Of a stretch of 64,000 nt of DNA, positions 3,507 to 18,878 are shown one piece after another. Numbering within the stretch: the stretch's first letter is position 1; each line of letters starts with the position of its first letter. The translations under genes and the position numbers were made by a program. Where the stretch lies: the NCBI RefSeq assembly GCF_036013955.1, contig NZ_CP107903.1:5890001-5954000 (forward strand). The letters run 5' to 3'. The stretch comes from Streptomyces sp. NBC_00459. Lineage in GTDB: Bacteria; Actinomycetota; Actinomycetes; Streptomycetales; Streptomycetaceae. Below the pieces are notes generated by a model, which was not told the origin of the DNA, searched no databases, and worked only from the letters and a program-made list of their open reading frames with translations.

Positions 3507-3675
3507 CTCCACTGGATCAGCGCGCGGTCTCGGCTCTGTACCGGGTTGGTCATGGTCCTGGGGCTCCGTAGCCGGGAATGAGAGGGCCGCGTAGCGTGTT
3601 CGCGACAGGACAAGGGAAAGATCCTCCCCAAGCACTAGGGTCAATCCTTTGCCCACCTATTACTCTTGAGCCCAA

Positions 3676-3692
3676 GGCCACGCAGTGTGGCC
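3676..3692 (+). other. Small hairpin directly before the BaxI-like gene SD
   Basis: GGCCAC (3676-3681) and GTGGCC (3687-3692) form a perfect 6-bp stem with a 5-nt loop, ending only 2 nt before GGAGGA of the ribosome binding site. It could tune translation initiation. The rest of 3507-3705 holds no recognisable gene. Confidence 0.35.
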
Positions 3693-3705
3693 ATGGAGGA
3701 GTGAA

Positions 3706-4608
3706 ATGAGGAGCAGCAACCCGGTCTTCTCGCGACGGGGGTTCAGCCGCGACAACGGCTACGCGGGCTTCAACACCGCGCCGCAGGCCGGGGGCGTCGG
3801 TACGCAGTCGGGCAACCCGTACGCGGACCAGCAGGCCCAGCAGGGCGGCAACCCGTACGCGACCAACCCCTACGCCCAGCAGGACCTTCAGCACGGCGCA
3901 CCGCCGCAGGCCCCGGTCTCCACCGGCCGGATGACGATGGACGACGTCGTCATGCGGACCGCCACCACTCTTGGTGTGCTGGTCGTCACGGCGGCGCTCG
4001 CCTGGGCACTCCTGCCGGTCGACGACGCGAACATCAACCGGTCCTACGGCATCGCCATCGGCGCCGGTCTGGTCGCGATGGTCCTGGGCCTCGTCCAGTC
4101 CTTCAAGCGCAAGGCCTCGCCCGCGCTGATCGTGACGTACGCGGCGCTCGAGGGTGTCTTCCTCGGTGTCATCTCCAGCGTCGTCGACAACCGCATCGCG
4201 AGCGGCGCGGCCATGCAGGCCGTGATCGGCACGATGGCGGTCTTCACCGCCGTACTCGTGGCGTACAAGGCGGGCTGGATCCGCGTCAACCGCCGCTTCT
4301 ACGGCTTCGTGATGGCGGCCGCGCTCGGCTTCGTGCTGCTGATGGCCGTGAACCTCCTGTTCGCGGTGTTCGGCGGCGGTGACGGCCTCGGCTTCCGCAG
4401 CGGCGGCCTCGGCATCATGTTCGGCATCATCGGCATCCTGCTCGGTGCGTGCTTCCTCGCCCTCGACTTCAAGCAGGTCGAGGACGGCATCGCCTACGGC
4501 GCGCCGCGCGAGGAGGCCTGGCTCGCCGCCTTCGGCCTCACGATGACGCTGGTCTGGATCTACATGGAGTTCCTGCGGCTGATCGCGATCCTGCAGGGCA
4601 ACGACTAG
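3706..4608 (+). CDS. Bax inhibitor-1/YccA-like integral membrane protein
   Basis: 300-residue membrane protein. The first 75 residues are hydrophilic and rich in Asn, Pro, Tyr and Gln, with repeated NPYA units (GNPYADQQ, GNPYATNPYAQQ). Seven or so hydrophobic segments follow, from TLGVLVVTAALAW near residue 87 to the C-terminal TLVWIYMEFLRLIAIL. The pattern and the FKQVEDGIAYGAPREEAW stretch fit the actinobacterial BaxI_1 branch of the BI-1 family, whose bacterial members are implicated in ion leak or protease control but whose role here is unknown. ATG at 3706 follows GGAGGA; upstream in-frame starts lack a good SD. It ends at a strong bidirectional terminator. Confidence 0.85.
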   Translation: MRSSNPVFSRRGFSRDNGYAGFNTAPQAGGVGTQSGNPYADQQAQQGGNPYATNPYAQQDLQHGAPPQAPVSTGRMTMDDVVMRTATTLGVLVVTAALAWALLPVDDANINRSYGIAIGAGLVAMVLGLVQSFKRKASPALIVTYAALEGVFLGVISSVVDNRIASGAAMQAVIGTMAVFTAVLVAYKAGWIRVNRRFYGFVMAAALGFVLLMAVNLLFAVFGGGDGLGFRSGGLGIMFGIIGILLGACFLALDFKQVEDGIAYGAPREEAWLAAFGLTMTLVWIYMEFLRLIAILQGND

Positions 4609-4646
4609 TAACCGGTACGACGGCCGGTAGCTGTCGTACAGGCAAC

Positions 4647-4680
4647 GGAAGGGCCCCGGGAGCACTCCCGGGGCCCTTCC
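4647..4680. terminator. Bidirectional terminator
   Basis: A perfect 15-bp stem (4647-4661 with 4666-4680) closes a GCAC loop between two convergent genes. There is no long T-run, as is usual in Streptomyces. Confidence 0.8.
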
Positions 4681-4729
4681 GCTCGTCGTGGTGTCGGTGT
4701 GCGCCTCGGTCTCCCGGAGAGCTGTGCTC

Positions 4730-4960
4730 TCAGAGGAACTTGCGCGCGGCCCTCCTCAGGTCGTACTCGTGAATGATCGCCTTGGCGTGGCCGTACGCGA
4801 GATTGTGCTCGTGCCGGAGCCAGCTGACCTTCTCCTCGAAGCGGAAGAGGGAGGGGCCTTCGTCGACGGTGCGCAACCAGTCGGAGACTTCACGACCGGT
4901 GCAGTGGGGGATGCGGGCGAGCATGTTGCGGTGGGTCTCCTCGGAGAGGACGTGGGACAT
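4730..4960 (-). CDS. Small DUF4287-like protein
   Basis: 76-residue soluble protein. The C-terminal half, WLRHEHNLAYGHAKAIIHEYD, resembles the end of DUF4287 proteins, where a helix followed by a GHA-type motif is conserved; function is unknown. ATG at 4960 begins MSHVLSEETHRN; the frame extends far upstream without resemblance. It converges on the BaxI-like gene across a shared terminator and diverges from the 5065 gene across about 100 bp that must hold both promoters. Confidence 0.7.
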   Translation of the reverse strand: MSHVLSEETHRNMLARIPHCTGREVSDWLRTVDEGPSLFRFEEKVSWLRHEHNLAYGHAKAIIHEYDLRRAARKFL

Positions 4961-5064
4961 CGGCGCCTCCGGACGCAAAGGGGATGTAAGCCGGTCCTTC
5001 ACGCCACGGTGCCTGAGGGTTGGGTCGTTGGCAACAGTCCGGTTGCGACGCGTAGTCTCGCGGC

Positions 5065-5376
5065 GTGCTCGATACCTCGCCTTTGACGCTTGCAGTGGAT
5101 CACTTTGCCGACCGGTTGCGGGCGGCGCCGCAGAGTCGGTTGCAGAGGGGAGCCGCGGCGGAGGCGTTGGGGCTGGCCAGGGAGTTGGCACGGCGTGCCC
5201 AGCTGTTGGAGTCGCCGGGGGACGAGCCTCGGACCATGCCTGATGTGGGGATGTTCGCCGCGGCGGATCAGGTGACGGTCGCCGCGCACGATCTGGCGAT
5301 GGTGTTGCGGGGGGAGGGTGAGCTGGCCTCGGTGCTCACCCTGGTCGCGGAGGCTCAGCAGCGGGCCGGGGTCTGA
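5065..5376 (+). CDS. Conserved hypothetical helical protein (103 aa)
   Basis: GTG at 5065 opens a 103-residue frame with alternating hydrophobic heptads (LAVDHFADRLRAAPQSRLQ, then AAEALGLARELARRAQLLE) and no Cys, signal peptide or membrane segment. I do not recognise a family; it looks like an all-alpha actinobacterial protein of unknown function. Codon use (GC at third positions) fits a real gene. It stands alone between two minus-strand genes. Confidence 0.6.
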   Translation: MLDTSPLTLAVDHFADRLRAAPQSRLQRGAAAEALGLARELARRAQLLESPGDEPRTMPDVGMFAAADQVTVAAHDLAMVLRGEGELASVLTLVAEAQQRAGV

Positions 5377-5469
5377 CCGGTTCGTTCTCGGCCGGCCTTC
5401 TGCCGGTGGAGTCGAAGAGCTCGGCTCCCCTCGCTCCTGCACCTGCGAAACACACGGCACGCACCACGA

Positions 5470-6267
5470 CTACAGGGACGCTATGACCCTGTCCGCGAGT
5501 ACGTACACCGTTTCCTCGCCGCATTCGAAGGTCAGGGCGTAGGCGCCCGAGATGCCCGAGCCGCCGAGGAGGACCGGGGCCTCGCCCGTGCGCAGGGCCG
5601 CGGAGAGGCGTTCCGCCGTCTCGCGGTGGCCCGGGGTCATGCAGAGGGTCGTGCCGTCGGTGAAGACGTAGACGTCGAGGGTGCCCAGGGGGCCGGGTCG
5701 GACGTCGGCCAGGGCGGTGCGCGACTCGGCGAGGTCCTCCAGGCAGGCGACCGTACGTTCGTGGTCGTTCACGATGGGCGACTGGGCCGGTACGAAGTCG
5801 GGGTGCGAGGGGTGCCGGCGCCGGGCGGCGGCCAGTTCGGCGGACTCTCCCGCGAACTCGTCGGTGTCCGTGCTGGACTCGGTCACCGGCTCCAGGGACT
5901 CCAGGCCCGCGAAGTCCGCCGAGCGCGGCAGGAACAACTCGCTGTCGGGGAGGCCGAGCAGGGAGGGGGCGTCGGAGGCGTCACGTGCCTCCTGGGCGGC
6001 CCAGAAGGCACGCGCCTCGGCGAGCTCCCGCTCCCGCTCCTCGGCGAGCGCCTCGGCCACGGCGGCGCGTATCCGGTCGGTGTCGCCGGGAGTGCGGGCC
6101 TGCGGCACGAGACCGTGCGCGCCGACGGCGAGACTCTGGGCGGCGAGCTCGGCATGCAGGGCCGCGATCTGTCGACGCAGCCCCAGCAGGGTGCGCAGAA
6201 CGGCGACGCCCACAGCCGTGGTGATGGTGGCTGTGGCGAGCAGCAGAGCAAGAGGCGTAGCGCTCAC
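5470..6267 (-). CDS. Membrane-anchored hypothetical protein with coiled region
   Basis: 265 residues. An N-terminal hydrophobic segment (about 5-28, LALLLATATITTAVGVAVL) is followed by LLGLRRQIAALHAELAAQ, a probable short coiled coil, then a charged Ala/Glu-rich linker. A C-terminal globular part contains FTDGTTLCMTPGHRETAERLS and ends ECGEETVYVLADRVIASL. The layout suggests a single-pass protein with a cytoplasmic domain. I do not recognise the family. The stop TAG lies at 5470-5472 and the start ATG at 6267. A thiolase gene lies upstream on the same strand, separated by a terminator, so it is probably transcribed alone. Confidence 0.7.
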   Translation of the reverse strand: MSATPLALLLATATITTAVGVAVLRTLLGLRRQIAALHAELAAQSLAVGAHGLVPQARTPGDTDRIRAAVAEALAEERERELAEARAFWAAQEARDASDAPSLLGLPDSELFLPRSADFAGLESLEPVTESSTDTDEFAGESAELAAARRRHPSHPDFVPAQSPIVNDHERTVACLEDLAESRTALADVRPGPLGTLDVYVFTDGTTLCMTPGHRETAERLSAALRTGEAPVLLGGSGISGAYALTFECGEETVYVLADRVIASL

Positions 6268-6465
6268 TGACGTACTCCCGGTTCAAAGTCGACCCCCGAC
6301 TTCCTACATCAGCTTGAAGGGTGGACTAACCACCTGTCAGTGCGTAACGTCACGAAACGGACAGGACTTTGGGCCCGGGGTTTGGTATCGAACCTGCCTT
6401 GACCTGCGCAAATACCTCGCCAGAGCGAGATAGGTCACATCCTGGGGGAGATTGGATCACAAAAC

Positions 6466-6500
6466 GGCCCAGAACCCCGGTGGTTACAGGGTTCCGGGCC
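6466..6500. terminator. Terminator hairpin after the thiolase gene
   Basis: GGCCC-A-GAACCC (6466-6477) pairs with GGGTTC-C-GGGCC (6489-6500), giving 11 bp with one mismatch. It lies just downstream of the thiolase stop on the minus strand. The 6268-6465 stretch, upstream of the 5470-6267 gene, shows no gene. Confidence 0.7.
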
Positions 6501-6574
6501 GCTTTCTCACTCGGTGCGTCCGCTCGACTACCGAAACGATTCCGCCAGTTGGGGACCGACGGCGGTGCGATGGC

Positions 6575-7795
6575 TCAGCTGAGGCGCTCGATGACCATCG
6601 CCATGCCCTGGCCGCCGCCGACGCACATCGTCTCCAGGCCGAACTGCTTGTCGTGGAACTGGAGGGAGTTGATGAGCGTGCCGGTGATCCGGGCGCCCGT
6701 CATGCCGAAGGGGTGGCCCACGGCGATGGCGCCGCCGTTGACGTTCAGCTTCTCCAGCGGGAGGCCGAGGTCGCGGTAGGAGGGGATCACCTGGGCGGCG
6801 AACGCCTCGTTGATCTCGGCCAGGTCGATGTCGTCGATGGTCAGGCCGGCGCGGCGCAGCGCCTGCTGGGACGCCTCGACCGGGCCGAGGCCCATGATCT
6901 CGGGGGAGAGGCCGGAGACACCGGTGGAGACGATGCGGGCCAGCGGGGTCAGGCCCAGCTCGGCGGCCTTCGTGTCGCTCATGATCACGACCGCCGCGGC
7001 GCCGTCGTTCAGCGGGCAGCAGTTGCCCGCCGTGACCAGCCCGTCCGGACGGAACACCGGCTTGAGTCCCTGGGTGCCCTCCAGGGTCACGCCCGCACGC
7101 GGACCGTCGTCCTTGCTGACGACCGTGCCGTCGGGCAGCGTCACCGGGGTGATCTCGCGCTCCCAGAAGCCGTTCTTGATGGCTTCCTCGGCGAGGTTCT
7201 GCGAACGGACACCGAACTCGTCCATGTCCAGACGCGTCACGCCCTTGATGCGGGCGAGGTTCTCGGCGGTCTGCCCCATCGAGATGTAGGCGTCCGGGAC
7301 GAGGCCGTCCTCGCGCGGGTCGTGCCACGAGGTGCCCTCCTGCTCCGCGACGGCGGCGGTACGGGCCTCGGCCTCGGCGAAGAGCGGGTTGCGCGTGTCG
7401 GGCAGGGAGTCCGAGTTGCCCTTGGCGAACCGGGAGACCATCTCGACACCGGCCGAGATGAAGACGTCGCCCTCGCCCGCCTTGATGGCATGCAGTGCCA
7501 TGCGGGATGTCTGGAGCGACGACGAACAGTAACGGGTGATCGTGCAGCCCGGCAGGTAGTCCATGCCCATCTGTACGGCGACGATCCGCCCGAGGTTGTT
7601 GCCCTGCTCGCCGCCGGGCAGACCGCAGCCGAGCATCAGGTCGTCGATGTCCCGCGGGTCCAGCTCGGGGATCTTGGCCAGGGCGGCCTGGATGATCGTG
7701 GCGGTGAGATCGTCGGCGCGCAGCTCCTTGAGGGAGCCCTTGAAGGCGCGTCCGATGGGGGAGCGGGCGGTCGAGACGATGACGGCTTCCGGCAT
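6575..7795 (-). CDS. Acetyl-CoA acetyltransferase (thiolase)
   Basis: Thiolase of 406 residues that condenses or cleaves acyl-CoA (acetoacetyl-CoA formation or the last step of beta-oxidation). The nucleophilic Cys lies in [21 protein letters not shown] near residue 90. The C-terminal signatures [18 protein letters not shown] and [11 protein letters not shown] carry the catalytic His and second Cys. ATG at 7795 gives [18 protein letters not shown], the conserved start; the much longer open frame upstream is spurious. No partner 3-hydroxyacyl-CoA dehydrogenase is adjacent, so whether it serves degradation or biosynthesis is open. The region upstream (7796-7900) is AT-richer than its surroundings and probably holds the promoter. 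Confidence 0.93.
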
Positions 7796-7963
7796 GACGG
7801 CTCCATTGGCGACGAGGGTGTAGGCGGACCTGTAAGCAGACCTGGTTTGGAAGTTACCCGTACGTATGGCGTCGGTCACGGGTGTGGCGGTGTGACGCGG
7901 GCCGCACTTTTCTAAGCGCTTGCTCAGGAGGTCGGGGTGAGGGTGGCTCGCTGCCCCGTCGCG

Positions 7964-7991
7964 GCGGGGCCGCACATCCCTGCGGCCCCGC
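7964..7991. terminator. Hairpin after the SGNH hydrolase gene
   Basis: GCGGGGCCGCA (7964-7974) and TGCGGCCCCGC (7981-7991) form a perfect 11-bp stem with a 6-nt loop. It lies downstream of the hydrolase stop in the 7796-8054 gap, which otherwise holds only the thiolase promoter region. Confidence 0.65.
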
Positions 7992-8054
7992 GCCGCGTTC
8001 GGGGTGCGGGGCCGCATCAGGTACGGCTGCGGCGCTTCCACGCCCTCGCAGGCC

Positions 8055-9098
8055 TCAGCCGCTCGACACTCCCCTCGGGGTGGTCGGGGCGGGGGACGGG
8101 TCCGTCGCCGGGACCCGCCGCCGACGCCTGCGCTTGAGGAGTGCCCAGGGTCCTCTGGGCCCCGTGGGCATGGCCGCCGTGACCTCCGTGCCCGGCTCCG
8201 ACGCCGCCTCCGCCGCCGCTCGCGCCACCGGCAGGAAGCCCTCGCGGCGGGACGCGTCCGGGCGCTCCTCCTCCGCCGGCCACAGGCCCAGCGCCGCGCA
8301 CACCGTCGGGAGGACCGCCATCGCCGCCGTCGCGTAGCCCTCGGCGGACGGGTGGTAGTTGTCCGGGCCGAACAGTTCGCGCGGGTTGGCCTCGAACTCG
8401 GGGCCGAGCAGGTCGCCCAGCGACACCGTGCGGCCCCCTTGCTCGACGACCCCGATCGTCTGTGCCGCCGCCAGTTGCCGGGACGCCCGCCGGGCCAGCC
8501 AGCGCAGCGGCTGCTGGACGTGCTCGACGGTGCCCAGGTCGGGACAGGTGCCCACGACCACCTCGGCACCCGCCGTACGGAGTCGGCGTACCGCAGACGA
8601 CAGATGGCGGACCGAGCGCGTCGGGGGCATCCGGTGCGTGACGTCGTTCGCGCCGACCATGATCACGCAGACGTCCGGGATCCGGTCGGAGGCCGCGACG
8701 GTCAGCGCGACCTGGCGGTCCAGATCGTCGGACTGGGCGCCGGGCAGCGCCACGTTGCGCAGTTCCACCGGGCGTTCCGCGAACGCCGACAGGCCGGACG
8801 CGAGCAGCGCGCCCGGGGTCTGGCGGGCCCGGTGGACGCCCTGGCCGGCCGCCGTGGAGTCGCCCAGCAGGACGAGTCTGAGCGGGGGCTCACCGGGGGT
8901 GGCGTACCCGCGTCCGTACAGGCCGTCCGCGCTCGGCGCGTGCGGGCCGCCGCCGTTGCCCACCTGGCGTTTCGCCATCCGTACCTCGGCCAGCACCAGT
9001 CCCACGGCCGCCGCGCTCATCAGGCCGATCCCGCCACCGCCGTACGCAGCGCCGGCCGCGATCCGGCGGGCCACCCTTGCCCTGGACATGCTCGTCAT
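8055..9098 (-). CDS. SGNH/GDSL-family hydrolase, membrane-anchored
   Basis: 347-residue esterase or lipase-like hydrolase. Block I LLGDSTAAGQG (Ser near 80) supplies the nucleophile, VIMVGANDVTH the GxND block, and PDNYHPSAEGY near 265 the Asp-His pair. A hydrophobic N-terminal stretch (about 12-37) indicates secretion or membrane anchoring. ATG at 9098 follows GAGGAGG at 12 nt; a second ATG three codons downstream is possible. The C-terminal 70 residues are basic and low in complexity (RRRRRRVPATDP). The substrate is unknown; in Streptomyces such enzymes act on lipids or acylated sugars. It diverges from the cystathionine beta-synthase gene across 150 bp. Confidence 0.85.
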   Translation of the reverse strand: MTSMSRARVARRIAAGAAYGGGGIGLMSAAAVGLVLAEVRMAKRQVGNGGGPHAPSADGLYGRGYATPGEPPLRLVLLGDSTAAGQGVHRARQTPGALLASGLSAFAERPVELRNVALPGAQSDDLDRQVALTVAASDRIPDVCVIMVGANDVTHRMPPTRSVRHLSSAVRRLRTAGAEVVVGTCPDLGTVEHVQQPLRWLARRASRQLAAAQTIGVVEQGGRTVSLGDLLGPEFEANPRELFGPDNYHPSAEGYATAAMAVLPTVCAALGLWPAEEERPDASRREGFLPVARAAAEAASEPGTEVTAAMPTGPRGPWALLKRRRRRRVPATDPSPAPTTPRGVSSG

Positions 9099-11722: not shown

Positions 11723-13276
11723 ATGTCGTCTCGGATCGTGGATGTGCCGCCTCCGGCGTCCACCGGCATCGTCGTCCTTGACGGTGTCGGCCTCGGTGTC
11801 GAGGACGTCGTGCGCCTCGCGGACGGGGCCGCGCGGCCCGTCCCGGGCACCGACGCGATGAAGCGCGTCGAGGAGGTCTGGGACGTCGCCCGCCGGATCG
11901 CCGCGACCGGCCGCGTGTACGGCCGCTCCACCGGCGTAGGCGCCAACCGCAACGAGGCCGTCCCGACCGAGGCCGCCGCCGACCACGGACTGCGCCTGCT
12001 GCGCAGCCATGCCGGTGCCATCGGCAGGGAACTGCCGGCCCGGCAGGTACGGGCGATGCTCGCTGTCCGCGCCAACCAGCTGCTGGCGGGGGGCGCCGGA
12101 CTCCGGCCCGGAGTGGTCACCGCCCTGTGCGAGGCGCTGGAGAACGGGGCCCACCCCGTGATCAACGAGTTCGGATCGGTGGGCACCGGGGACATCGCGG
12201 CGCTGGCTCAGATGGGGCTCGCGCTGGCGGGGGAGCACGAGTGGATCGGGCCGGCGACGACAGCGGCGGGATCGCCTTCCCGCGGGTGGAGTGTCGCCGG
12301 AGCCCCCGAGCCCCAGGCCCTCGACAACAACGACGCCCTCGCCCTGATCAGCAGCAACGCCCTCACCCTCGGCCAGGCCGCGCTCGCCCTGCACGAACTG
12401 CGCGGGCTCATCGCCGCCACGCAGGTCGTCGCCTCGCTCTCACTGCACGCCGTCGACGGTTCCCACGAGGCGTACGCGGCGCCCGTGCACGCCGCCCGTC
12501 CGCACCGGGGTTCGGTCGAAGTTGCCCGCCGGATGCGCGAGTTGATCGGCTCTGCGGCCCGGCCCACCCCTCCCCTCGGGCGCATCCAGGACCCGTACGG
12601 CTTCCGGTGTCTGCCGCAGATCCACGGGCCCGCGCATGACGCGGCGGACGCCCTGGAGGGGGTGCTCGCCATCGAGATCAACGCCGCCGCGGAGAACCCG
12701 CTCATCTCCCCCGAGGACCTGACCGCCTACCACCACGGCGGCTTCTACCAGGCCCAACTGGCCCTCGCCCTGGACCACTTCAGACTGGCCGTCACCCAGG
12801 TGGCGCGGCTGTCCACCTCGCGCCTGTCCACCCTCAACGAGCCCGCCTTCACCCGTCTGCGCCCCTTCCTCGCCGACCACGAGCCCGCCGCCTCCGGGGT
12901 GATGATCCTGGAGTACGCGGCCGGCGCGGCCCTCGGTGACCTGCGGGCCTTCTCCGCGCCCGCCTCCCTCGGGCACGCTGTACTCTCCCGGGGCGTCGAG
13001 GAGCAGGCCAGCTTCGCCTCGCTCGCCGCCCGCCAGACACTGCGCGCGTGCGACGCGTACCGTCTCGTGGTCGGCTGCGAACTGGTCGCCGCCGTACGCG
13101 CGCTGCGCCAGCGCGATCTGCGGCCGGACCCGGACCTGCCGGCCGGACGGGCGCTGGAGCTGGCCGAGTCCGTCCTGGACGACGACTCGGCCGACCGGCC
13201 GCTCACGGACGACGTGACAGTGGCTGCGGCACTGCTGGACCGGTTCACGGAGATCTGGAGGGGGAGCGCGGTATGA
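11723..13276 (+). CDS. Aromatic amino acid ammonia-lyase family protein with non-canonical cofactor triad
   Basis: 517-residue member of the HAL/PAL fold. Family landmarks are present: VYGRSTGVGANRNEAV near 72 (catalytic Tyr region), NQLLAGGAGLRP, NALTLGQAALAL, QDPYGFRCLPQIHG near 296 and AAENPLI near 330. The cofactor loop, however, reads NEFGSVGTGDIAALAQ instead of GS(V/L)G-(A/C)SG-DLAPL: one residue is missing and no Ala/Cys-Ser-Gly remains from which the MIO group forms. The Glu and Asn of the usual EGLALLN segment are also changed (DALALIS). It may be inactive, bind a ligand or use Thr-Gly differently. Its stop overlaps the RpiR gene start (ATGA). Canonical HutH activity is doubtful. Confidence 0.8.
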   Translation: MSSRIVDVPPPASTGIVVLDGVGLGVEDVVRLADGAARPVPGTDAMKRVEEVWDVARRIAATGRVYGRSTGVGANRNEAVPTEAAADHGLRLLRSHAGAIGRELPARQVRAMLAVRANQLLAGGAGLRPGVVTALCEALENGAHPVINEFGSVGTGDIAALAQMGLALAGEHEWIGPATTAAGSPSRGWSVAGAPEPQALDNNDALALISSNALTLGQAALALHELRGLIAATQVVASLSLHAVDGSHEAYAAPVHAARPHRGSVEVARRMRELIGSAARPTPPLGRIQDPYGFRCLPQIHGPAHDAADALEGVLAIEINAAAENPLISPEDLTAYHHGGFYQAQLALALDHFRLAVTQVARLSTSRLSTLNEPAFTRLRPFLADHEPAASGVMILEYAAGAALGDLRAFSAPASLGHAVLSRGVEEQASFASLAARQTLRACDAYRLVVGCELVAAVRALRQRDLRPDPDLPAGRALELAESVLDDDSADRPLTDDVTVAAALLDRFTEIWRGSAV

Positions 13277-14335: not shown

Positions 14336-14929
14336 GTGGCACGCGGAGTTCGCGGAGGGCAGGGCCTGGCTCGGGTGGCCGTGGTCGTACGGGCCGGAGT
14401 GACGCCCCTGTGGTGGTACGGAGTGTTCGCGGCGGGCATCGGCGTGCTGGTGCCCGGGATCACCGGCCGCCGGATCGGGGTGATGGCGGGGGCCGCGCTG
14501 TTCATCGTCGCGGCCGGTGCCGTGGCGTGTCTGCGGCGCGGGCGCTACTCCGCGCTCGCCGCCGGTGCCGCCCGGGCCGGCAGGCACGACGTGCTCCAGG
14601 ACCGCGCGGTGACCGTGCGCAACTGGCGCCGCGGTCACCGCTGGTGGCTGCTGCTCGCCTTCGCCGCCGCGCTGGCCGGCTCCCTCGCGGTGCCCGCGGC
14701 GGGCGGAATGCTGCTCGCCGGGGCCGGTACCGGGCTGCGGCTGAAGGCCGCCTGGCTGGGCCGCCGCGAGCGCGCCGACGACGTACTGCTGTGGGTACGG
14801 GTGGACTGGCTGGGCCCGCGTTCCGGCGCCCCGGCGGGCAAGCCGGTCAAGGCCTACCGCGCCACGGGAATCGCCGCCGGCGACGCCACCCCGGGCGGGG
14901 CGCGCCGCCGCGGCGACGTACTGGTCTAG
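14336..14929 (+). CDS. Hypothetical membrane protein
   Basis: 197 residues. Hydrophobic segments at about 22-38 (WWYGVFAAGIGVLVPGI), 44-60 and 105-135 (WLLLAFAAALAGSLAVPAAGGMLLAGAG) alternate with Arg-rich loops; the tail is basic and soluble. No enzyme motif is visible and I do not recognise a family. GTG at 14336 is preferred because GGGAGG lies 5 nt upstream; the frame itself opens at 14306. It is convergent with the roadblock operon with only 31 bp between. Confidence 0.65.
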   Translation: MARGVRGGQGLARVAVVVRAGVTPLWWYGVFAAGIGVLVPGITGRRIGVMAGAALFIVAAGAVACLRRGRYSALAAGAARAGRHDVLQDRAVTVRNWRRGHRWWLLLAFAAALAGSLAVPAAGGMLLAGAGTGLRLKAAWLGRRERADDVLLWVRVDWLGPRSGAPAGKPVKAYRATGIAAGDATPGGARRRGDVLV

Positions 14930-14960: not shown

Positions 14961-15335
14961 TCAGACCTCGATCTCCGCCTCGATCCGTTTCAGCTGGTGG
15001 CGGGCCATCGCCAGGTTGGAACGGTTGATGTCGAGCACCAGGTAGAGGAAGAGGCCGTTGCCGCCGCGCCCCTTCATCATGCGGATCAGGTGGTACTGGC
15101 TGGAGAGCGTGATCAGGATGTCCTCGATCTCGCCCTTCAGGCCGAGGTGCTCCATGGTGCGCATCTTCGCGCGTACGACGTCGGTGTTGCCGGCGGCGGC
15201 GACGTTCAGGTCGAACGTCTTGCTGCCGCCCATGGTGCCCAGGGCCATGCCGCTGGTGTAGTCGACGAGTGCGACTCCGGTGGCGCCCTCGATGGAGGTC
15301 AGCGCCTCTTTCAACGCGGTCTCTGTGGTGGCCAT
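14961..15335 (-). CDS. Roadblock/LC7 family protein
   Basis: 124-residue roadblock-fold protein. EGATGVALVDYTSGMALGTMGG near the start and EDILITLSSQYHLIRMMK in the middle are typical, and FLYLVLDINRSNLAMARHQL forms the last strand and helix. It is clearly paralogous to the protein at 16790-17221 (ALVDYTSGMALGT against ALVDWTSGLALGT). Roadblock proteins usually regulate Ras-like GTPases (MglB, CvnB), yet none is encoded here. ATG at 15335 follows AGGAGAGG. It is the last gene of a four-gene minus-strand operon. Confidence 0.85.
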   Translation of the reverse strand: MATTETALKEALTSIEGATGVALVDYTSGMALGTMGGSKTFDLNVAAAGNTDVVRAKMRTMEHLGLKGEIEDILITLSSQYHLIRMMKGRGGNGLFLYLVLDINRSNLAMARHQLKRIEAEIEV

Positions 15336-15361
15336 GACGGTGTTCCTCTCCTGCTTCCGGT

Positions 15362-15886
15362 TCAACTATCCGTGGTGGTACGCGCGTTGGGCGTGCCTGT
15401 CGGTGTGCGTGGCGCGCGTGGGGTTCTGGTTCGGGTGGGCATGGGTTCGGGTGTCGTAGGGGGTGCGATGGCCGGCCGGTCCGGTCCGGCCACTGCGGGT
15501 GCCGGCGCCGCCTCGGCCGCCGCGTCCACCAGCTCGCCGATACGGAGGCCGGCCCGGCGGCCCTCCAGGTGCAGCCGGCCGACGTTGACACGGTCCTGGG
15601 CGAGCAGCGTCAGAACGGCGGTACGGCCCGCCGCGTACGTCGCCACGTAGCCGTACACCCCGCGCACCAGCAGCTCGCGGAAGTCGCCCTGGCCGGTGGC
15701 GTCCGCCATCCGCACGGCGACGCTGAGCGCTGTGGCGGTGAGCGCCGCGACCGTCTCCGGTTCGACACCCGGGGTGTCCTGCACGAGGACGAGACCGTCG
15801 ACGCTGGCCGCGAGGGCGCCGGTGAGCTGGGGGACGCGGGCCCGCAACCGGCGTAGTTCGTCCATGACTTCGGCCTCGGCTGCCAT
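15362..15886 (-). CDS. MglB/roadblock-like protein with Pro/Thr-rich tail
   Basis: 174 residues. The N-terminal 115 follow the roadblock pattern: LTGALAASVDGLVLVQD, a helical TVAALTATALSVAVRMADATG and VYGYVATYAAGRTAVLTLLAQ. The last 45 residues are Pro/Thr/Arg-rich (TPEPMPTRTRTPRAPRTPTG) and probably disordered. ATG at 15886 follows GAGGAG at 10 nt; another in-frame ATG lies at 15864. It is separated from the neighbouring operon genes by 26 and 37 bp. No GTPase partner is encoded nearby. Confidence 0.8.
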   Translation of the reverse strand: MAAEAEVMDELRRLRARVPQLTGALAASVDGLVLVQDTPGVEPETVAALTATALSVAVRMADATGQGDFRELLVRGVYGYVATYAAGRTAVLTLLAQDRVNVGRLHLEGRRAGLRIGELVDAAAEAAPAPAVAGPDRPAIAPPTTPEPMPTRTRTPRAPRTPTGTPNARTTTDS

Positions 15887-15923
15887 GAGTGTCTGTCTCC
15901 TCTCGGCACGCGGGCGCTGCCGT

Positions 15924-16793
15924 TCAAAGGGCCTCCAGCGCATCCCTGAGCCTCTTCAGCAGCGTGATGTTGGGGTCGGCGAACGACGGCGGCAGTGTCC
16001 CGGGGGGAGCCGGGGGAGCCGAGGACTCGGACGGTGGTGGAGGAGCGGGGGCCGGGGGTGGCATGGCCTCCGGGGCTATGACTCCCGCGGCTGCCAGGCG
16101 CCGTACGTCCACCAGGGTGTGGAAGGCCGGACGAGCCAGCGCCAGGGCGATGTCCGCCGCCGTACGGACTCCGTTCACCAGGGCCAGTACGGCGTGCTGG
16201 CGGGCGGTGACCGTCGGCGCGGCCGGGCTGCCCGAGAGGAGCAGTGGGGCGCTGTCGGGCGCCGGGTCGGGCCAGATGCGGTGCAGCAGGGCGCGTCGGC
16301 GCAGGGTCTCGTGCTCGACCGCCGCCACCGGCACCGGGCGCACCGGGCCGAGCCAGTGCGTGTCCCCGTACTTGAAGTGCCCCGGCGTGCCGCTGGGCGC
16401 GAGGGCGAAGTACGCGGCGTCGTACAGCGCCCCCAGGTGGCACACCTCCAGGGCGCCCACGCCGATCCGGCCGCTCTCGACCAGGAACCGCCCGACCCGG
16501 TGCAGCTCGCCGGCCGCGCCGACCGCGTCCCGCCAGCCGTCCGCGTCCAGCGTGCCGTGCGCGGTGAGCAGCACATCGAGGCCCGGTACGGCCGGGCTCT
16601 CCGCGTGCACCACCTGGCCGTCGGTGAGGTAGAGCGAGCCGCGTTCGCGGACCAGGACTCCGGTTGCCCGTTCGGTGGCGAGCCGGCCGAGCATCGGTGA
16701 GACCCCGCCCCACGCCCGCTGCCGGGCCGCCGCCTTGTCCCGCACCGGCAGGCGCGGCGGCGGGGTCGTCAGATTCGTGTGCAGAGTCGTCAT
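15924..16793 (-). CDS. DUF4388 (PATAN)-like protein of the roadblock operon
   Basis: 289 residues. About residues 35-110 contain GRLATERATGVLVRERGSLYL and TDGQVVHAESPAVPGLDVLL, the glycine-turn pattern of DUF4388/PATAN domains that occur with MglA-MglB-type signalling. A helical region follows (about 215-255, VTARQHAVLALVNGVRTAAD), resembling a winged helix, then a Pro-rich linker and a short C-terminal helix (LLKRLRDALEAL). Its ATG overlaps the stop of the upstream roadblock gene (ATGA), so the two are translated as a pair. It may connect roadblock proteins to a further partner; function is inferred only from domain and context. Confidence 0.7.
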   Translation of the reverse strand: MTTLHTNLTTPPPRLPVRDKAAARQRAWGGVSPMLGRLATERATGVLVRERGSLYLTDGQVVHAESPAVPGLDVLLTAHGTLDADGWRDAVGAAGELHRVGRFLVESGRIGVGALEVCHLGALYDAAYFALAPSGTPGHFKYGDTHWLGPVRPVPVAAVEHETLRRRALLHRIWPDPAPDSAPLLLSGSPAAPTVTARQHAVLALVNGVRTAADIALALARPAFHTLVDVRRLAAAGVIAPEAMPPPAPAPPPPSESSAPPAPPGTLPPSFADPNITLLKRLRDALEAL

Positions 16794-17221
16794 CCCAGCA
16801 CCAGCCGTCCCGCCATCTCGCCGAGCCGGATGCGGGCCAGCGCGAGATTGCCCTCCGCGCGGGCCAGCCACAGGTGCAGGAACACACTGCTGTCGAAGCT
16901 CGTCGTGACGAACCGCAGAACGTGGTAGCTGTCGCGGTTGCTGATGATCAGGTCCTCGACCGGAGGATCCTGCTCCCGCCGGCCGACGGTGAACTCGTCG
17001 GCGTCGGCACCGGTCTCGTACTCCTCCTCCGGGGCGAACGCCCGGTGCTCGACGGCCAGCCGGGCCAGCTCGGCCGCCTCGGCCGCCATCGTCTCGGGAT
17101 CACCGCCCGGGGACTCCCCGACGGTGCCCAGTGCCAGCCCGCTGGTCCAGTCGACCAGCGCGGCGCCCCGGGCACCGGGCAGCCGCATGGCTTCCAGTAA
17201 GCACTCGTCGATTCCGGGCAC
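16790..17221 (-). CDS. Roadblock/LC7 family protein, first gene of the operon
   Basis: 143 residues, a paralogue of the 14961-15335 protein with an acidic insertion (FAPEEEYETGADADEFTVG) between the first strand-helix unit and VEDLIISNRDSYHVLRFV. The end, VFLHLWLARAEGNLALARIRL, matches its paralogue. GTG at 17221 follows GGGAGGGG. Upstream lie four GTTCGG direct repeats. It is the promoter-proximal gene and is coupled by ATGA to the DUF4388-like gene. Confidence 0.82.
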   Translation of the reverse strand: MPGIDECLLEAMRLPGARGAALVDWTSGLALGTVGESPGGDPETMAAEAAELARLAVEHRAFAPEEEYETGADADEFTVGRREQDPPVEDLIISNRDSYHVLRFVTTSFDSSVFLHLWLARAEGNLALARIRLGEMAGRLVLG

Positions 17222-17462: not shown

Positions 17463-18878
17463 TCAAGGGCGCGCGGAGGGGGAGCCGGTGGGATGGAGGG
17501 TGGTGAGCGCGGACGCGTGCGCCCCGCCGGATTCGGCCACGATCTCCGCGACGCTCTGCGGCTCCCGCACGACCGCGAAGGCGACCCCTTCGCCCCCGCC
17601 CCCGTCCATGCCCTCGGCCGGGCGTCCGCCCGCGCTTCCGCCCGGCACGAAGCCGTAGATCCCGGGACGGGCAAGGGAGTTGTACGCGTAGTGGTGCGCG
17701 AAGTAGTACGCGCCCGTGTCCAGTGCCGCCGCGTAGTCGCCCTGTTCGAGCAGCGGCAGCGCACGCCCCTCGGCCAGCAGGTCGCCCGAGAAACAGGCGG
17801 GTCCTGCCACGTCCTGCACCACGTCCGCCCCGGACTTGGGGAGCCCCTTCCCGTCGTACGCGGCGATCCTGAGCGGCCATGACGCCGGTGCGTACACCGT
17901 CCGTGTCGCGACCTGGACGCCCGCGTGCGTGACCGCGACCGGTCGGCCGCCGGCGCTCTTCGCGTACTCGACGCGCGCCACCACCGTGCCGTGCTTGGCC
18001 AGCAGCGACCGTCCGAATTCGGTCACCAGCCCGTACCGCCCCCCGAACAGCCCCGGCACCGCGTCGCTCAGCAGCCGCGCGTACTGCGTGTACGTCGGAC
18101 TCGTCGCGTCCGACGCGAAGTTGACCGGCAGTCCGCCGCCGATGTCGATGGTGTCGATCTGCTGCCGCCCGACCCGCCGGTTGATCTCCTCGGCGAGCGT
18201 GTACGTCTCCGCCACGCCCCGCACCATCAGCGACAGCGGGATGCCCTGCGACCCGGTGTGCGCGTGCAGCCTGGTCAGCCACGGGCGCTCGGCGTACGCC
18301 CCCACGATCCACTCGCGCGCCCCTTCGTCCAGCAGTGCGACCCCGAACTTCGAGGTCGCGGTGGCGGTGGACGTGGCCCCGATCGACCCTCCGCCGATCT
18401 GCGGGTTCACCCTTAGTCCGATTGGGGACCGACTGGCCGCGGACCGCATCAGCGCGTCGATCCGGTCCAGTTCCTGCGGGTTGTCGGCGTTCACGGCGAT
18501 GCCCAGCGCCAGTGCCTCGCGCAGCTCGGTGGGCGTCTTGGCGGGCGAGTCCAGCACCGTCAGCCGCGGCGGCACCCCCGCGGCCCGCGCCAGCGCCAGC
18601 TCCCCCGGACTCGCCACCTCGGCCCCGATCCCCTCCGCGTGCAGGAGCCGCAGTACGGGCACCAGCGGGGTCGCCTTCACCGCGAAGGCGTGCAGGACGG
18701 GCGTGCCGGGCGCCACGACCGCGTCGAAGGCGGCGCGCAGCTCGGCGGCGGACTCCCGGATGCCGATGACGTCGAGCAGGCCGACGATGGGTGCGTCGGC
18801 GCGGAGCAGTCCCTGCTCCACGGCGGCGCGTACGGCCTCGTCCCGGCGGCCCGTGCGATCGGAACCGTTGTTCTCCAT
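17463..18878 (-). CDS. PLP-dependent decarboxylase, DapDC/ornithine decarboxylase fold III
   Basis: 471 residues related to diaminopimelate and other amino acid decarboxylases. The PLP lysine lies in HAFAVKATPLVPVL (about Lys 68). AHTGSQG, IDIGGGLPVNF (phosphate loop), TEFGRSLLAKHG, the catalytic Cys in CFSGDLLAEG and DTGAYYFAHHYAYNS are all in order. It does not read as a standard LysA: the Cys motif is CFSGD and a Gly-rich insertion lies near the C-terminus, so the substrate is uncertain. ATG is at 18878. It diverges from hutU, sharing 187 bp with a strong promoter and operator-like repeats, so a link with histidine or arginine metabolism is possible. Confidence 0.82.
   Translation of the reverse strand: MENNGSDRTGRRDEAVRAAVEQGLLRADAPIVGLLDVIGIRESAAELRAAFDAVVAPGTPVLHAFAVKATPLVPVLRLLHAEGIGAEVASPGELALARAAGVPPRLTVLDSPAKTPTELREALALGIAVNADNPQELDRIDALMRSAASRSPIGLRVNPQIGGGSIGATSTATATSKFGVALLDEGAREWIVGAYAERPWLTRLHAHTGSQGIPLSLMVRGVAETYTLAEEINRRVGRQQIDTIDIGGGLPVNFASDATSPTYTQYARLLSDAVPGLFGGRYGLVTEFGRSLLAKHGTVVARVEYAKSAGGRPVAVTHAGVQVATRTVYAPASWPLRIAAYDGKGLPKSGADVVQDVAGPACFSGDLLAEGRALPLLEQGDYAAALDTGAYYFAHHYAYNSLARPGIYGFVPGGSAGGRPAEGMDGGGGEGVAFAVVREPQSVAEIVAESGGAHASALTTLHPTGSPSARP

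Follow-up and report, generated by a model that had tools for sequence, protein, structure and literature searches.

What do roadblock proteins, generally seen as factors that regulate GTPases or scaffold them, do in an operon that lacks a GTPase gene? We addressed this question for a locus of Streptomyces sp. NBC_00459 (genome size 9.76 Mb), which lies in a stretch of 64,000 nucleotides (contig NZ_CP107903.1, positions 5,890,001 to 5,954,000; here called the window) and comprises four coupled minus-strand open reading frames (ORFs), P0001-P0002-P0003-P0004, at positions 14961-17221. As judged from sequence or predicted fold, three of these genes encode proteins of the roadblock type, and the fourth encodes a DUF4388/winged-helix-like protein that has a conserved helix at its C-terminus; they are kept together without a GTPase gene in Streptomyces and other Actinomycetia. 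The operon looks like a derived, GTPase-less form of an old module made up of roadblocks, a DUF4388 adaptor and a small GTPase, and its products may act on GTPases encoded elsewhere in the same genome.

The first gene, P0001 (16790-17221, minus strand), starts with GTG and encodes a short roadblock-like protein of 143 residues, whose match to Robl_LC7 reaches 18 bits, under the cut-off of 23. It overlaps by 4 bases with P0002 (15924-16793, minus strand), whose 289-residue product has a DUF4388-like and a winged-helix-like domain, joined through a proline-rich linker to a C-terminal helix. After a gap of 37 bases follows P0003 (15362-15886, minus strand; 174 residues), a Robl_LC7 protein similar to MglB and CvnB, and after a further 26 bases P0004 (14961-15335, minus strand; 124 residues), a short roadblock by predicted fold. 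No match to the GTPase profile was found in the window, and of the family profiles used, the only matches there were the four operon proteins. Nor does a gene for a CvnA kinase adjoin the operon, as judged from the gene calls, with no kinase profile run. A preliminary description of this DNA, made from the sequence alone, had proposed four coupled genes for two paralogous short roadblocks, an MglB-like roadblock with a tail and a DUF4388-like protein, with neither a GTPase nor a kinase among them; the layout and the absences are borne out by these positions and searches, and the protein assignments are taken up in the following.

Among the roadblocks, P0003 matches the Pfam family Robl_LC7 with 60.5 bits (cut-off 23) and ends in a tail rich in proline and threonine. 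Its family aligns with CvnB, the MglB-type roadblock of the conservons (CvnA-B-C-D), at 98.3% in profile-profile comparison, and its solved relatives in the PDB include 7f8m, cvnB5 (3leq) and MglB (3t1r). P0004 has no match in Pfam or NCBIfam. Its AlphaFold2 model, based on 25 sequences, has a mean predicted local distance difference test score (pLDDT) of 86.2 and a predicted template modeling score (pTM) of 0.81, with the element order H-E-E-H-E-E-E-H. A Foldseek search with this model returned MglC (7ct3) as the top match by E-value (9e-7; TM 0.64), a Streptomyces roadblock (3kye; TM 0.80) and an Asgard roadblock (TM ~0.80), along with Ragulator chains and MglB, with a probability of 1.00 for MglC, 3kye, Ragulator and MglB alike. 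By its predicted fold, P0004 is a roadblock, and the homology of the P0001 and P0004 families (99.3% in profile-profile comparison) makes them the two paralogous short roadblocks of the preliminary description. No sequence-profile link connects P0004 to P0003 or CvnB (0.1%). Four weak matches that the P0004 family profile obtained among PDB sequences, to ubiquitin-like proteins, had E-values of at least 0.035 and were put down to chance.

The arrangement of the four genes is highly constant. Named-record loci were taken as the best 80 of at least 581 confirmed places, all closely related and nearly all from Streptomyces, with two labeled Kitasatospora and "Actinobacteria bacterium". Gene calling recovered P0001-P0002-P0003-P0004 in this order in 74 of the 80; in two more, P0003 was recovered by tblastn alone, once split over two frames (L082), and the remaining four end at contig ends. 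Because a six-frame profile search finds all four families in 76 of the 80 loci and the others are cut, the arrangement is far from chance. Including nine loci from relatives, one from the source genome, four from the class and six from plasmids, four-family loci total 96, counted as profile matches on six-frame ORFs. None of these 96 sets has a GTPase inside. In flanks of up to 9 kb, the GTPase profile matched once, 7.9 kb off, in a locus (L131) that apparently has a conservon nearby, since CvnB and CvnC profiles also match there. In medians over the loci of the type found in the window (set A), short gaps and a 4-base overlap are typical.

The source genome contains two further sets of this kind. 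Set B, again without a GTPase, consists of a P0004 homolog (64% identity), a P0001-like, a DUF4388-like and a Robl gene; it lies at 3611-7198 of a region (L048) spanning genome positions 6614000-6628000, adjoins sigR-rsrA-like genes and carries its P0004 homolog on the opposite strand. Set C, also GTPase-free, consists of a DUF4388-like gene, a Robl gene and a gene for a small protein, P5, at 6241-8241 of another region (L049; 6415000-6429000); P5 is a conserved protein of 137 residues that matches no Pfam family and is not linked by its profile to those of the roadblocks. A lone P0004 homolog lies at 429735-430103. Both P0002 and P0004 have many invariant residues, and of the members compared between the sets, P0004 is conserved best (63-64% between sets A and B). 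In a tree of roadblock proteins, the P0003 members of the three sets form one clade (100/99) that is separate from the CvnB clade (99/96) and sides with DUF4388-linked roadblocks (85/94), albeit in a tree with few columns, long branches and a bootstrap that had not settled.

Any GTPase serving the operon would have to be encoded elsewhere. The source genome has 12 CvnD-type GTPases and 12 DUF742 genes, and these CvnDs sit in conservons, because each of them adjoins a DUF742 gene. A broader profile that includes distant GTPases recovered the 12 CvnDs and one ORF of 1077 residues but nothing more, so that no cognate MglA-type GTPase was found in this genome beyond these. At 3913-6548 of a separate genome region (L050; 5702000-5714000), the gene for a protein resembling NIT-domain histidine kinases precedes that for a lone CvnB-like roadblock; as neither CvnC nor CvnD was called alongside, this may be a truncated conservon.

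Relatives of the operon that keep a GTPase occur both on the DUF4388 side and on the P0004 side. A search with PF14332 outside the class matched 86 of 296 Actinomycetota genomes; 30 loci were kept, and 20 extended regions were chosen from these. A roadblock gene lies beside the DUF4388 gene in 28 of the 30 loci. In 18 of the 20 regions, one to three roadblock genes (three in seven cases) precede the DUF4388 gene, and in 18 a CvnD-like GTPase gene follows it, as confirmed by a six-frame check that included L236; the two exceptions are a lone DUF4388 gene (L240) and a locus cut by the contig start (L247). Presumably, the genes often found next to these operons are pilB/pilT-like and aroE-like, and the frequent proximity of pilB/pilT-like genes (L228-L246) suggests a pilus switch. 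On the other side, six loci encode a P0004 homolog together with a small GTPase and a further roadblock. Three of them lie within the class (L252, L263 and L264) and have a divergent small GTPase and a divergent roadblock; the others are on proteobacterial plasmids of Comamonas, Agarilytica and Acinetobacter, the GTPase of the last lying across the record start. None of the six contains a P0001 or P0002 profile match of its own. On the Agarilytica plasmid pSU2 (L269, 4965-7036), a BLUF blue-light sensor is encoded beside the P0004 homolog, as are a small GTPase and a roadblock, a layout that suggests a light-sensing GTPase switch. Since relatives of both parts thus occur with a GTPase, whereas the four-gene set of Actinomycetia is without one, the GTPase-free state looks derived. 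By its own criterion, the preliminary description would fail if homologous operons normally included a conservon GTPase; the four-gene sets have none, but the distant DUF4388 operons and the six P0004 loci do have a GTPase.

P0004 relatives extend well beyond the four-gene set. Within the class Actinomycetia, the family profile found members in 106 of 394 genomes and 27 of 137 genera. In 18 class loci hand-picked from these 106 genomes, P0004 stands alone in five, with P0001 in four, with P0003 in two, with P0002 and P0003 in two, with P0002 in one and in the full set in four. Among plasmid records, 28 of 72,556 contain P0004 relatives, including plasmids of Deinococcus, Hymenobacter, Comamonas, Acinetobacter and Agarilytica, so that the family reaches Deinococcus, Bacteroidota and Proteobacteria; the homolog from Deinococcus gobiensis is 63% identical over 90% of the P0004 length. 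No relative was found in phages. Of 21 plasmid loci, 11 lack a profile-matched partner, although in one of these an annotated DUF4388 gene lies alongside. On one Deinococcus plasmid (L280), a DUF4388 gene lies just upstream of the P0004 homolog, which is split over two frames, and another locus (L283) has P0001 and P0002 matches and no P0004 match. In L251/L262 (genome G387; 35-1429), an open frame fuses a long acidic, probably disordered stretch to the P0004 domain, with an internal start being possible.

P0002 resembles GTPase-linked proteins at its C-terminus. Its assignment as DUF4388-like, made in the preliminary description, is upheld by the comparison of its family with the DUF4388 family from the PF14332-found loci (98.7% over 209 columns) but not by Pfam itself, where P0002 scores 15.5 bits against DUF4388 (PF14332), under the cut-off of 25, and the orthologue in L278 23.7 bits. 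In the model (pLDDT 85.7), the DUF4388-like and winged-helix-like body is confident and the linker is of low confidence, followed by a C-terminal helix at residues 274-288 (codons 274-289 at 15927-15974, minus strand) that resembles the C-terminus of CvnC. All 28 aligned orthologues end in the same five residues, ALEAL, after a variable proline-rich linker. A similar tail ends most CvnC proteins of the source genome (e.g. LLERVLSGLRKL) and many GTPase-linked DUF4388 proteins (e.g. LISRLIDGVKGL). Over winged helix and tail, the P0002 family aligns with CvnC at 90% (E 1.7e-6), compared to at most 0.5% for 14 neighbor families and 20.5% for the P0002 family minus its tail; P0002 itself has no match to Pfam DUF742, and one orthologue reaches 14.8 bits (cut-off 27). 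When a matrix of the tails of CvnC and GTPase-linked DUF4388 proteins was applied to 2,352 other entries, ten reached the set A median, all of them CvnC or DUF4388 proteins.

Structure searches were also made with P0002. Foldseek returned nothing at an E-value of 0.001 or better for the whole model. For the winged helix, the highest-scoring structures are GATOR1/SEA chains (Z 9.2-8.4), which we take to be NPRL2/3; unrelated proteins reach Z 8.1 and 7.6, and we make no claim of kinship. The helical part of the DUF4388-like domain resembles the N-domains of MshE/PilF (Z 5.0-5.9), and P0002 contains one MshEN-like stretch. Counted with a pattern that we assume to represent the MshEN motif, and with duplicates and truncations among the entries, the motif occurs in 36 of 109 set A, one of ten set B and none of eight set C entries, compared to 14 of 19 entries of the distant DUF4388 family. 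Cyclic di-GMP sensing by this domain was set aside, as the motif is no general feature of the sets.

Taken together, these data lead us to favor, as the most likely reading and one still held tentatively, a roadblock scaffold that holds P0002 by its helix and acts mainly on conservon GTPases in trans. P0001, P0004 and P0003 would assemble into a hetero-oligomer of roadblocks, similar to MglB-MglC or Ragulator, on which P0002 may dock via its C-terminal helix, in the way the RomR helix docks on MglC. In RomR from Myxococcus, a proline-rich linker is reported to connect the folded N-terminal domain to a C-terminal helix, which by itself binds MglC with a dissociation constant of 2.6 nM (PMC12719032). 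It is this shared layout, together with MglC being among the best fold matches of P0004, that suggests retention of P0002 by its tail. The complex could then act on one or more of the 12 CvnD GTPases, either by competing with CvnB and CvnC, which it resembles in its parts, or by bridging them, with the DUF4388 and winged-helix parts possibly carrying input or output. Action on conservon GTPases is suggested as the most likely because the P0002 tail resembles CvnC, which has been reported, in the case of CvnC9, to bind CvnD9 (PMC8510531) and has been suggested as a possible guanine nucleotide exchange factor (PMC13343842). CvnD-type matches were counted in 73 of the 106 P0004-positive genomes, with further checks on eight and then on five genomes. 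It speaks for this reading that the 11 genomes, other than the source genome, with at least two of the four genes around P0004 have five to nine CvnD-type matches throughout.

Several findings weigh against this reading. By TM-score, MglC (0.64) is not the best match of P0004, given values of ~0.80 for 3kye and the Asgard roadblock. The roadblocks of the DUF4388-GTPase operons match the P0003/CvnB profiles, and none matches the P0004 or P0001 profile, so that the short roadblocks had another source. With a tail matrix made from CvnC alone, nine of the 2,352 other entries score as high as the set A median or higher, and six of these are an unrelated neighbor enzyme. The CvnC-like tail is confined to set A, with CvnC aligning at 1.1% to set B and at 8.3% to set C, and the alignment of CvnC with the distant DUF4388 family (30.8%) covers the winged-helix part only and no tail. 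The loss of the GTPase is itself inferred from distribution rather than from a rooted tree. The co-occurrence with CvnD-type GTPases is weak, because large Actinomycetia genomes tend to have both. Three draft genomes with a stated completeness of 100% (G294, G387 and G346) have a P0004 homolog and no such small GTPase; their weak GTPase-profile matches are restricted to ORFs of 853-938 residues, they yield no Robl_LC7 match, and none of the other three operon genes was seen at their P0004 loci.

These three genomes make a GTPase-independent mode of action a serious rival; the preliminary description had likewise named both a stand-alone scaffold and the regulation of a GTPase encoded elsewhere. 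In this case, the roadblock complex would need no GTPase and would serve as an adaptor joining P0002 to putative clients, an explanation that we hold to be possible rather than probable. It fits with the consistent lack of a GTPase in the four-family sets, with the frequent occurrence of P0004 without a profile-matched partner, and with the conservation of P0004 between sets A and B, while P0002 is only ~33% identical between them; there is also a precedent in MglC, a roadblock said to have lost MglA binding (PMC7949163). It is harder to reconcile with the GTPase genes in the six P0004-homolog loci and with the retention in P0002 of a tail like that of GTPase-linked proteins. The partner might instead be a dedicated, unrecognized GTPase or another NTPase encoded elsewhere in the genome, and some P0004-linked GTPases are indeed divergent and weakly matched by Pfam, but the broad profile recovered nothing in the source genome apart from the conservon CvnDs and the 1077-residue ORF, which makes such a partner improbable.

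The genomic surroundings bear on an explanation of a different kind, in which the winged helix of P0002 binds DNA and the roadblocks control P0002, perhaps with the flanking genes as targets. The operon is flanked by a gene for a membrane protein (14375-14929) and a gene similar to those for pyridoxal-phosphate-dependent decarboxylases (17463-18878), and it lies among what we take to be histidine-utilization genes, a hutH-like gene at 11723-13276 and a hutU-like gene from 19066 onward. Such hut-like neighbors are found in up to 67 of 77 set A loci, the window included, and one P0002 orthologue is annotated as a transcriptional regulator. However, the operon is oriented opposite to the hut-like genes, its position may reflect mere synteny, the other sets are located elsewhere, as is set B by its sigR-rsrA-like genes, and GATOR1/SEA chains head the list of structures similar to the winged helix; we regard a transcriptional role as unlikely. 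Finally, the missing GTPase gene and the P0003 copy of L082 split over two frames could be taken as signs of a decaying, functionless remnant. This notion, which we regard as very improbable, is already contradicted by conservation: by the presence of all four families in every named locus that is not cut by a contig end, by the typical short gaps and overlap, by the many invariant residues of P0002 and P0004, and by the maintenance of paralogous sets.

Several known systems come close to the operon. It shares an MglB-type roadblock with the conservons, and the winged helix and C-terminal helix of P0002 resemble CvnC, but it lacks the CvnA kinase and the CvnD GTPase, has two extra short roadblocks and a DUF4388-like domain, and its P0003 is placed apart from the CvnB clade in the unsettled tree. 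The roadblock-DUF4388-GTPase operons likewise have one to three roadblocks followed by a DUF4388 protein, in several cases with a similar C-terminal tail, but they differ in the GTPase gene and in the type of their roadblocks. The MglA-MglB-MglC-RomR module of Myxococcus also includes several roadblock paralogues, and the layout of RomR is as in P0002, whereas the operon has no MglA in cis, RomR contains a receiver domain in place of the DUF4388-like domain, and the role in polarity belongs to the Myxococcus module. Ragulator (LAMTOR) offers fold matches to P0004 and, as an idea, a hetero-roadblock scaffold for GTPases, but it is eukaryotic and lysosomal, and the sequence identity of its chains to P0004 is ~20% or less among the matches listed.

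The preliminary description had also known of no description of the gene set. In the open-licence literature, outside which most subscription papers lie, we found no description of the four-gene set, the P0004 family, its GTPase-linked relatives across phyla or the shared tail. Parts of the picture had been reported before: Wuichet and Sogaard-Andersen (2014; PMC4316618) describe a small actinobacterial MglB clade whose members are all orphans with no conservon genes beside them, and they cite Makarova 2006 for the occurrence of MglB genes close to PATAN genes. By its description, this clade resembles P0003 as an MglB homolog away from GTPase and conservon genes, although the available portion of that paper describes no gene set. 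A wider and more doubtful proposal is that P0004 defines a roadblock family not described so far, with members in Actinomycetota, Deinococcota, Bacteroidota and Proteobacteria and on plasmids too, that was first a subunit of small-GTPase switches and became a GTPase-free signaling scaffold in several lineages, with the Streptomyces operon as its most elaborate form, a bacterial Ragulator-like hub with a helix-bound DUF4388 adaptor.

Our findings supply a predicted fold for the highly conserved P0004 family, whose members carry the annotation "hypothetical protein" among the named plasmid matches listed, and a candidate docking helix in P0002 that resembles the end of CvnC. Moreover, a three-roadblock module without a GTPase gene, complete in 76 named loci, provides a test of whether roadblock scaffolds can signal GTPase-free. 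Alternatively, it may represent a shared scaffold that links the many conservon GTPases of one cell, among which cross-talk has been proposed (PMC8510531).

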